Origin: Haloterrigena sp. H1
GTDB taxonomy: Archaea > Halobacteriota > Halobacteria > Halobacteriales > Natrialbaceae
DNA: 64,000 nucleotides
Direction: 5' to 3'
NCBI RefSeq assembly: GCF_005938085.1
Contig: NZ_SMZK01000001.1
Span: forward strand, 2,666,001 to 2,730,000
The notes below the pieces were generated by a model. It was not told where the DNA came from and did no database searches. It saw nothing but the letters and a program-made list of their open reading frames with translations. A program made the position numbers and the translations under genes. Shown here piece after piece: positions 35,386-42,705 of this stretch. Each line of letters starts with the position of its first letter. The stretch's first letter is position 1.

Positions 35386-36000
35386 TCACTCGTCGCCGTC
35401 GTCACTAGTCGCGGACTCTTCGAAGAGGGAGTCGATCTCCGAGAAGAAGTCCTCATCGTCCTCGTCAGCCGTCTCGCCCGCAGTTTCATCTTCGTCCGCA
35501 TCCGTCTCATCCGCGGTTCCGTCCTCACCGACGGCATCCGATTCGCCGTCATCATCGTCTTCGAAGACCGTGTCGTCGCTCTCTTCGTCATCACTACCAG
35601 CCCCCGTCTCGGGGCCGTCCTCGTCGGCGTCGTCATCATCCTCGATATCCCGCCCGTCGGGACCGTCAGCCGCAGTTTCGGCGACAGTCGCCGTCGAATC
35701 CTCACGGCCATCAGCCCCATCGTCGCCGCTTCCGGTCTCGCTCGCCGCGGTCGAATCGGCTGCCGACCCGTCGCCCCCAGCGTCGCCACTGTCTCCGGCG
35801 TCGCTGGCAGTTGTCTCCTCGCCGTCGTCACCTGCACCCCCCAGCGGTTCCGTCTCGCCGTCGGCCTCGGGCCCCGGGTCCGATTCGGCCACGAACAGCT
35901 CCGGGCCGACGACCGCGACAGTCACTCCGAACACCGAGAGGATGAGTACGGTCGTTACAAGGACCGCAGCGATCGATGACGGGTCGGACTCCTCGGCCAT
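35386..36000 (-). CDS. Membrane-anchored extremely acidic low-complexity protein
   Basis: 204 residues. One membrane helix (about 10-38, AAVLVTTVLILSVFGVTVAVVG) is followed by about 160 residues made mostly of Asp, Glu, Gly, Ser, Thr and Ala with runs such as EDDDDADEDGPE. The C terminus (EDFFSEIDSLFEES) may be a short helix. It resembles a disordered surface or tether protein; no family is recognised. Confidence 0.6.
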   Translation of the reverse strand: MAEESDPSSIAAVLVTTVLILSVFGVTVAVVGPELFVAESDPGPEADGETEPLGGAGDDGEETTASDAGDSGDAGGDGSAADSTAASETGSGDDGADGREDSTATVAETAADGPDGRDIEDDDDADEDGPETGAGSDDEESDDTVFEDDDDGESDAVGEDGTADETDADEDETAGETADEDDEDFFSEIDSLFEESATSDDGDE

Positions 36001-40703: not shown

Positions 40704-40894
40704 CAACGTGACGTGAGCCAGGCACGTCGGAACGACGGCGCTCTGGTGACGACACGCGAGCGCGCGCTCAGGATTTATCGGTGCGTTCGAGCTAGCACCC
40801 ACCGCACCGTCACGGCCATCAGTGACTTGCGTAGCGGTTGGGCGAGTCCATTATCGACCGCGCATCGCCACTCGACAAGCCACACAGCCTATCC

Positions 40895-42226
40895 ATGAAC
40901 GACAGATACGACAGCGACCGACAACGGAGAAACGAGCGAGGTACCGACCGCTCGAGCGACGTCGAACGACGCGGCCACGAGCAGCGTCACGGCGACGAGC
41001 AGGACCGCGGCCCCGATCGAAGTCAGTACGGCGACGACCGGGGCTGGCTCCACGGCACGTTTAGCCGCGGTGGCAGTAGTGACGTCGGCTCTCAGGGTCC
41101 CGACCACCGCAGGCGCGAGCGCGAGCAAACGGAGGGACACCACGAACGGACCCAACAGGGCGGACGGCAGCGCCAGCAGGGACAGGAACCCAGCCGATCG
41201 GGCGAACCGGGACAGCGATTTACCCAACAAGAGTCCCAGGACTACCAGCAGGAGCCCCAGCGACGAGGCCGACAATCCGAACGGCAGCGACAGGGCGGCC
41301 GACAGCGTCAGCAGGGACAGGAGCCTAGACAGAGCGGACCGAGACCGCGACAGGACGAACGGCAGCGCCAGCGGGGTCGGCAACCCAGTCAACCGGGCGA
41401 ACCGGAACAGCGGTTCACTCAACAGCGGTCTCAAGAGTACCGGCAGGAGCCCCACCGGCGAGGCCGACAGTCCGGACGGCAGCGACAGGGCGGCCGGCAA
41501 CAGCACAGCGGGTTCGAAACCGACGCGATAGACGAGGCGAACCTCGAGTACGGTGGCGAAGCCCGACAGCGAGAGTATCGCGGTCAGCGGGCCGAGAGAC
41601 AGGCCCAGTCCGGTCAACAACGTCAACGCGGCCGCAGCACGCAGGGACGGCGCAGCCACCGAGACGAGCAGCGAGGTCGGCACGACCGGCCCGAACCCGA
41701 CGACTTCGAGCAGCAACGAAGCCAGCGGGGCGAGGGCGAGCGGCGCACCCATCGAGGTAGCGATCGATACGAGCGTCGCTCTCAGCGCGGCGACGAGGAA
41801 CGCAGGCAGCGCCACCAGGACCAGCCGGAGTACGGTCGCCATCAGCGAAGCGAGGGCCATCAGACGGGGCGACAGCGAAGCCGCGGTAACGGCGAGCAAA
41901 GCCGGCGATCAGGGCGGGACTATCAGGACACCCAGCAGTTCGAGCGTCGAGGAGAGCGAGGAGGCTCCGAGTCCACGTCCGGCGGCCGTATGAACCGGGA
42001 ACAGTCCCGCAGCGACCTCGAATATCGCCAGCGAGGTCGGCGATCCGAGGGGGACGACCGGACCGACCGCTCGAGGACGGAGCAAGGCTCGCGTGGCGAC
42101 CGTAACCCGCAGCTCCACGACGAGGACATGACGTCCCGTCGGCACGTCCACGAACTCGAGCCGCGGACCGACGACGAGCGCGATCGCGACGAGCGGGACC
42201 GCGGCGCTGGATATCGGCCACGGTAG
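40895..42226 (+). CDS. Arg/Gln/Gly-rich low-complexity repeat protein
   Basis: 443 residues from MNDRYDSDRQRRNERGTDR. About one residue in four or five is Arg, with many Gln, Gly, Glu and Ser, but no Lys or Cys at all. It contains many RG/RGR/RGQ units and a 65-residue tandem repeat (repeat starts GEPGQRFTQQ and GEPEQRFTQQ, DNA offset 195 bases, about 41201 and 41396). Such composition is opposite to the acidic haloarchaeal norm and recalls RGG-type RNA-binding, phase-separating proteins. The frame is unbroken; a hydrophobic antisense frame (40889-41899) mirrors it. Reality of the protein is likely but unproven. Confidence 0.6.
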   Translation: MNDRYDSDRQRRNERGTDRSSDVERRGHEQRHGDEQDRGPDRSQYGDDRGWLHGTFSRGGSSDVGSQGPDHRRREREQTEGHHERTQQGGRQRQQGQEPSRSGEPGQRFTQQESQDYQQEPQRRGRQSERQRQGGRQRQQGQEPRQSGPRPRQDERQRQRGRQPSQPGEPEQRFTQQRSQEYRQEPHRRGRQSGRQRQGGRQQHSGFETDAIDEANLEYGGEARQREYRGQRAERQAQSGQQRQRGRSTQGRRSHRDEQRGRHDRPEPDDFEQQRSQRGEGERRTHRGSDRYERRSQRGDEERRQRHQDQPEYGRHQRSEGHQTGRQRSRGNGEQSRRSGRDYQDTQQFERRGERGGSESTSGGRMNREQSRSDLEYRQRGRRSEGDDRTDRSRTEQGSRGDRNPQLHDEDMTSRRHVHELEPRTDDERDRDERDRGAGYRPR

Positions 42227-42288: not shown

Positions 42289-42705
42289 ATGAGCGGTACG
42301 TACGTCCTCGTGATCGACGTCCCCCGAACGACGAGTTTCGAGGTTGGCGCGCTCGGCGAGTACACGTTCGACGCCGGCACGTACGCTTACGTCGGCAGCG
42401 CGTTCGGCCCGGGCGGCTTCAGTCGCGTCGAGCGCCACCGCGACCTCGCTGCCGGCGAGCGTGACACGCGCCACTGGCACATCGACTACCTGCTCGGCCG
42501 GCCTGAAACGACCCTCGAGACCGCGATCATCTTCCCAGATGCCGACCGAGAGTGCGAACTGGCCGCGCAGTTGCCGGGAACGCCGGTCGACGGCTTCGGG
42601 GCCTCGGACTGTGGGTGTGCAGGGCATCTACTCGCCGCGCCGGACGCCGACACCGTATGCGAGGCGGCGATCGATGCAGGCGGTGTCATCGACGAGGTGC
42701 GGTGA
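42289..42705 (+). CDS. GIY-YIG-like nuclease fold protein (DUF123)
   Basis: 138 residues from MSGTYVLVIDVPR. GTYAYVGSAFGPGGFSRVERH is the GIY-YIG-like signature of the DUF123 group, and HWHIDYLL with a C-terminal CGCAGHL completes it. Archaeal relatives are single-domain proteins, some fused to endonuclease III in hyperthermophiles, which suggests a DNA-repair nuclease. Activity is unproven. Confidence 0.8.
   Translation: MSGTYVLVIDVPRTTSFEVGALGEYTFDAGTYAYVGSAFGPGGFSRVERHRDLAAGERDTRHWHIDYLLGRPETTLETAIIFPDADRECELAAQLPGTPVDGFGASDCGCAGHLLAAPDADTVCEAAIDAGGVIDEVR

Follow-up and report, generated by a model that had tools for sequence, protein, structure and literature searches.

The closest described counterparts of the protein analyzed here are eukaryotic RG/RGG-motif RNA-binding low-complexity proteins, hydrophilins and LEA proteins, and protamine-type Arg-rich polymers; its setting is the haloarchaeal cytoplasm, which contains up to about 4 M KCl. 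Hydrophilins are defined by high glycine content and high hydrophilicity (PMC4190154). Arg-rich protamine undergoes phase separation without any partner molecule at 2.75 M KCl or NaCl; this reentrant behaviour at high salt is not seen with a Lys-rich peptide (PMC9705477).

In the window, i.e., the whole 64-kb stretch of DNA that was analyzed, a 443-aa protein is encoded at 40895–42226 (+), from an ATG at 40895 to a stop codon ending at 42226. The ORF, the alignments, the selection tests and the structural model together describe a gene for a predicted intrinsically disordered, Lys- and Cys-free, Arg/Gln/Gly-rich protein. A longer alternative start, TTG at 40838, is available, but in the alignment the M(N/T)DR start found in relatives coincides with the ATG at 40895. 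The sequence-only reading had described a frame dominated by Arg, Gln, Gly, Glu and Ser and devoid of Lys and Cys, and this composition is found at the locus: R 23.3%, Q 15.6%, G 12.9%, E 10.8%, S 8.1%, with neither K nor C. The 65-residue tandem duplication that it noted is also present, as two 150-nt copies (41155–41304 and 41350–41499, both +) that are 83% identical and offset by 195 nt (65 codons). Among the 50 ORFs called in the window, the Arg content compares with a median of 6.5% and a next-highest value of 12.7%, and the Gln content with a median of 2.45%. The proposed contrast with an acidic proteome holds for the isoelectric point (10.9 vs. a median of 4.5 for the window ORFs) but not for acidic residues, with a D+E content of 19.2% that is normal among them. 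The accompanying view that haloarchaeal proteins are Arg-poor has to be corrected: they are poor in Lys instead, and in the window, where the median Lys content is 1.15% and several neighbours have none, the absence of Lys alone is not unusual. An ORF of the opposite character, 204 aa long with 36.8% Asp+Glu, 1% Arg and no Lys, lies at 35386–36000 (−).

The bias is shared by the family. In the 35 members compared, median contents are R 21%, Q 15.6%, G 15.7%, D+E 17.7% and K 0.2%, the net charge per residue is +3%, and aromatic content is low (about 3%). These members contain 3436 Arg and 34 Lys, where ~757 Lys would be expected from the Lys share of neighbouring proteins, and one Cys against ~156 expected; the Arg:Lys ratio is thus ~100:1, compared with roughly 4:1 in the proteome. 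The protein is a strong polyampholyte of nearly neutral net charge whose positive residues are almost without exception Arg. Compared with shuffled sequences of the 35 members, there is an excess of RG dipeptides (746 vs. 515, z 12) and of tri-RG clusters (56 vs. 14); QRG, GQQ, DR and RS are also over-represented, RR is under-represented, and charges are more evenly mixed than random (median z −2.3). Di-RGG clusters stay at expectation (2 vs. 2). The many RG units that had been noted in the window protein do amount to 20, but only two are RGG and neither tri-RG nor di-RGG clusters occur in it. The earlier comparison with RGG/RG proteins is therefore apt only in part, for RG and tri-RG across the family, and the protein does not look like a classical RGG protein.

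An AlphaFold2 model built on a 13-row alignment has a mean pLDDT of 42 and contains no secondary structure, and the protein is predicted to be fully disordered. Conservation is unevenly spread over residue types: 50% of W, F, Y, L, I, V and M occupy columns with conservation in 80% or more of the Natrinema sequences, compared with 19–27% of Q, R and G. From the alignments, the anatomy can be read as a polyampholyte matrix of spacer character, dotted with a small number of conserved hydrophobic motifs. These comprise, all on the + strand, DRGWLHGTFSRG (residues 48–59, 41036–41071; DRGWLHGLFSR in relatives, alignment A1), the most conserved motif SGFETDAIDEANLEYGGEAR (residues 205–224, 41507–41566), with invariant columns in alignments A1 and A2, and, from the alignment, QPEYGRHQRSEGHQTG (residues 310–325, 41822–41869), GRMNREQSRSDLEYRQRGRRSE (residues 364–385, 41984–42049; SGGGLEYRQQGRRSEQGDWT in relatives) and the C-terminal SRRHVHELEP (residues 414–423, 42134–42163; MSNRRHVHERDP in relatives). 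The SGFETDAIDEANLEYGGEAR motif is found one to three times in other genera, with multiple copies in L053, L054 and L069. The pattern FET.A.....LEYGGEAR is present as a single copy in Natrinema, as two copies in Natrialba and as many as three in other genera.

GC-rich repetitive DNA can hold long frames by chance, and the frame could in principle be non-coding or decaying sequence that has simply stayed open: several frames are partly open in this DNA, and in two genomes (G018 and G024) the frame appears broken. The family pattern speaks against such an origin. Natrinema orthologues range from 292 to 567 aa with a variable number of repeats, and the motif islands are common to them and keep their order. 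Pairwise dN/dS among orthologues is 0.22–0.59, indicating purifying selection. Seven close pairs were aligned unguided at the nucleotide level; substitutions at codon positions 1, 2 and 3 number 248, 303 and 542, and 40 of the 44 gaps are multiples of three. A lack of frame conservation in relatives had been set beforehand as the refuting outcome; the frame is kept and is under purifying selection, and the caveat of a chance frame raised in the sequence-only reading is thereby removed. Together with the motifs kept between genera and the cross-genus matches to a C-terminal profile, these signatures refute a non-coding origin for the family, which is scarcely credible, and they indicate a real gene kept by natural selection. 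The seeming frameshifts or interruptions in G018 and G024 (L017 and L012) may reflect either decay or assembly error, and in G014 (L018) the orthologue is split by an ambiguous base.

The first search gave matches in 16 of 41 genomes, all in a single genus. Matches in named species place this genus as Natrinema (N. versiforme, N. thermotolerans, N. zhouii and N. mahii), and further matches were found in Natrialba aegyptia, N. taiwanensis and N. asiatica. A full-length profile matched in Natrialbaceae only, and a profile of the conserved C-terminus matched in 55 of 125 Natrialbaceae genomes, covering 16 of 29 genera; the genome set covers roughly half of the reference taxonomy's species, so that these family counts are samples. 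C-terminal-profile matches elsewhere in the order (E 0.003–0.01) were dismissed as chance; the two that were checked (L174, L175) share only 'RRHVHE' within Arg-rich frames. By these profile searches, the family appears convincingly present only in Natrialbaceae among the genomes searched. In an incomplete genome of another haloarchaeal family (G039), a 439-aa low-complexity frame with 25% Arg (L205:2183-3502) starts with MTDDDRRHRRERREYDS, contains SLHYGGDSRR and lies directly upstream of a KaiC-like gene; it may be a distant relative or convergent, and profile comparison lent no support to relatedness (probability 0.4%, E 0.15).

In most genera examined, the gene occupies a conserved slot with the order KaiC-like ATPase, Arg-rich gene, DUF123, CMD-like protein and glutamate synthase. 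In the window, Pfam and slot comparison place on the + strand a KaiC-like ATPase with an N-terminal Cys motif (PF06745, 39699–40703) as the usual upstream neighbour, a DUF123 gene (PF01986, 42289–42705) as the usual downstream neighbour, and a conserved carboxymuconolactone decarboxylase-family protein (PF02627, 42751–43356). The most diverged members keep mainly their ends (MND.YD, RGWLQG, GGLQYRQ, RRHVHD) and retain the slot and a similar composition; in L169, L172 and L173 composition is kept in the same slot despite strong sequence divergence. Near the Natrialba members (L068–L070), CMD and glycerol-1-phosphate dehydrogenase-like genes are present, and the fetched flanks yielded no KaiC-like gene. 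Two further observations concern the DUF123 relatives of 42289–42705 (L076–L097): no match was obtained in five Natrinema genomes (G003, G018, G019, G023, G024), and in G005, G006 and G008 the gene is in two pieces, with frame changes. In G104, a 163-aa member (L171, approx. 1741–2232) is acidic and Arg-poor (11% R, 36% D+E) and keeps the SGGGLEH..RDESGSWT motif and the slot beside DUF123; here the composition flipped and the motif stayed.

Upstream-region comparison identified a conserved promoter-like element at 40751–40797 (+), with a TATA-like ATTTAT at 40773–40778. Its 47-bp family consensus is TGCAcGCgaaCkCrCGCTCaGGwTTTATcc..cgTTCGG..TAgcA; 31 of the 34 upstream regions, drawn from different genera, match it at no fewer than 30 of the 47 positions. 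In relatives the element starts 92–194 nt 5' of the ATG, which implies a leadered transcript with its own promoter; in the window the probable transcribed 5' leader spans 40798–40894 (+, ~95 nt), with the start site estimated from the TATA position. A strict version of the element occurs exactly once, at the Arg-rich locus, in each of ten other Natrinema genomes; the window's own copy is more diverged and is missed by this pattern. No wider regulon emerged at up to two mismatches, where every genome with a match has the locus copy only. The comparison thus points to a gene with its own conserved promoter-like element and chromosomal slot in Natrialbaceae.

The gene is absent from 11 of 29 Natrinema genomes. 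Among these are the nearest relatives of the window species by the DUF123 gene (G017, G020 and G012, 90–92% identity), which carry between the KaiC-like and DUF123 genes a remnant corresponding to roughly the final two dozen codons. In G016 the promoter-like element and the leader survive together with ATG AAC GAC CGA, after which comes an out-of-frame tail, and in G002, G021 and G091 no trace of the gene is left. These remnants point to repeated loss of the gene, with deletion scars left behind, and such loss suggests that its function is conditional.

Searches of Pfam, NCBIfam, PHROGs, PADLOC, PDB and Rfam returned no match to the protein or gene, including none to LEA or KGG models (Pfam, NCBIfam) and none to phage or defence proteins (PHROGs, PADLOC). 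Members of alignment A1 had no Pfam match at E ≤ 1, RNA-binding domains such as RRM and KH included, and at E ≤ 10 four other-genus members gave one weak collagen-like match (one member, E 0.006, below the cut-off). The family is absent from the sequence-domain libraries searched. The literature searched for haloarchaeal proteins of low complexity, Gln-rich or RGG type, or linked to condensates, yielded no paper on it and no direct evidence of its expression or salt response, and the family is apparently undescribed.

We hypothesize, with a probability of about 0.4, that the protein serves as an arginine-sticker scaffold and undergoes condensation at molar salt. Most telling is the combination of abundant Arg with excluded Lys, read beside the behaviour of protamine at a salt concentration near that of the cytoplasm. 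The protein would act as a multivalent 'sticker' scaffold in a cytoplasm of roughly 4 M KCl, where charge attraction would be screened and Lys would contribute nothing, while Arg–Arg, Arg–Gln and Arg–aromatic contacts would persist or strengthen, so that chains would condense reversibly. The motifs DRGWLHGLF, FETxA...LEYGGEAR, SGGGLEYRQ...WT and RRHVHE may recruit a partner or tune self-association. Expression might be triggered by a particular condition, perhaps salt or water stress, and this would account for the dispensability and repeated loss of the gene. In its broadest form, the proposal is that Natrialbaceae carry a dedicated condensate scaffold tuned to molar salt, with Lys almost purged, Arg/Gln/Gly stickers working, or only working, in 3–4 M KCl, and short motifs recruiting clients; this version is more tentative, and we regard it as doubtful. 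Condensation itself is what we infer from the family composition, by analogy. The exclusion of Lys, the enrichment of RG, QRG and GQQ, the well-mixed charges, the gathering of hydrophobic and aromatic residues in conserved columns, the predicted disorder, the composition kept despite divergence and the promoter-like element favour the scaffold; against it, protamine is far more Arg-dense than the family (~21% Arg with ~18% acidic residues), aromatic content is only ~3%, and one member (L171) is acidic and Arg-poor.

The main rival is a hydrophilin- or LEA-like protectant, a hydrophilic, Gly-rich, disordered shield for proteins or membranes in desiccation or osmotic shock that forms no defined condensates. 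It gains this place because a median Gly content of 15.7% and a mean Hopp–Woods hydrophilicity of 1.06 (35 members) fit the loose hydrophilin description, that of a physico-chemical class and not a homology family (PMC4190154). Full predicted disorder and repeated loss, as expected of a conditional protectant, agree with it as well. Bulk hydrophilicity, however, leaves the conserved aromatic motifs and the strong selectivity for Arg unexplained. LEA-like proteins are usually Lys-rich and no LEA or KGG family was matched in Pfam. Overall, a protectant is rather unlikely. Binding of RNA, raised in the sequence-only reading, or of chromatin through RG/RS-type Arg-rich tails would account for the family-wide excess of RG, tri-RG and RS, for a slightly positive net charge in an acidic proteome and for the pI of 10.9. 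Such binding is handicapped by near-neutral charge (about +3% per residue, with ~18% acidic residues) and by high salt, electrostatic binding being weak at 4 M KCl; with di-RGG at expectation, no RNA-binding domain, and neither tri-RG nor di-RGG clusters in the window protein, we consider it unlikely.

The chromosomal slot suggests yet another role: the protein may partner or regulate the KaiC-like ATPase, or else the DUF123 and CMD proteins encoded downstream, with the short motifs, which resemble docking motifs, as contact sites; many genera keep the position beside the KaiC-like gene. Natrialba members nevertheless keep the Arg-rich gene with no KaiC-like gene in the fetched flanks, the KaiC-like gene persists where the Arg-rich gene is lost, and the latter has its own promoter-like element. 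As each gene occurs without the other, neither needs the other: an obligatory dependency on the ATPase is rejected, and a regulatory partnership is quite improbable.

If the arginine-sticker scaffold is correct, the family would be a natural test case for the association of disordered proteins with electrostatics switched off by salt, and its ~100:1 Arg:Lys ratio would be an evolutionary readout of the principle that Arg-rich, not Lys-rich, peptides condense at molar salt, which to our knowledge has so far been shown in vitro only. Haloarchaeal cell biology gains a family missed entirely by sequence-domain databases. The conserved promoter-like element and the natural deletion strains make it experimentally tractable, and its function is directly testable.

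Compared with known systems, the family resembles eukaryotic RG/RGG-motif RNA-binding low-complexity proteins in being disordered, Arg/Gly-rich and enriched in RG and tri-RG. Unlike them, it almost lacks di-RGG, contains much Gln and many acidic residues, has no folded RNA-binding domain and carries its own conserved motifs, and no sequence relationship to them was found. With hydrophilins and LEA proteins it shares high hydrophilicity, a Gly-rich composition, predicted full disorder and a plausible role in water stress, but it uses Arg in place of Lys, matches no LEA or KGG model in Pfam and has distinct conserved motifs. Unlike protamine-type Arg-rich polymers, it is a near-neutral polyampholyte with Gln and Gly, in which condensation is hypothetical; like them, its cation is Arg rather than Lys, the feature that permits association above ~2.75 M KCl (PMC9705477).
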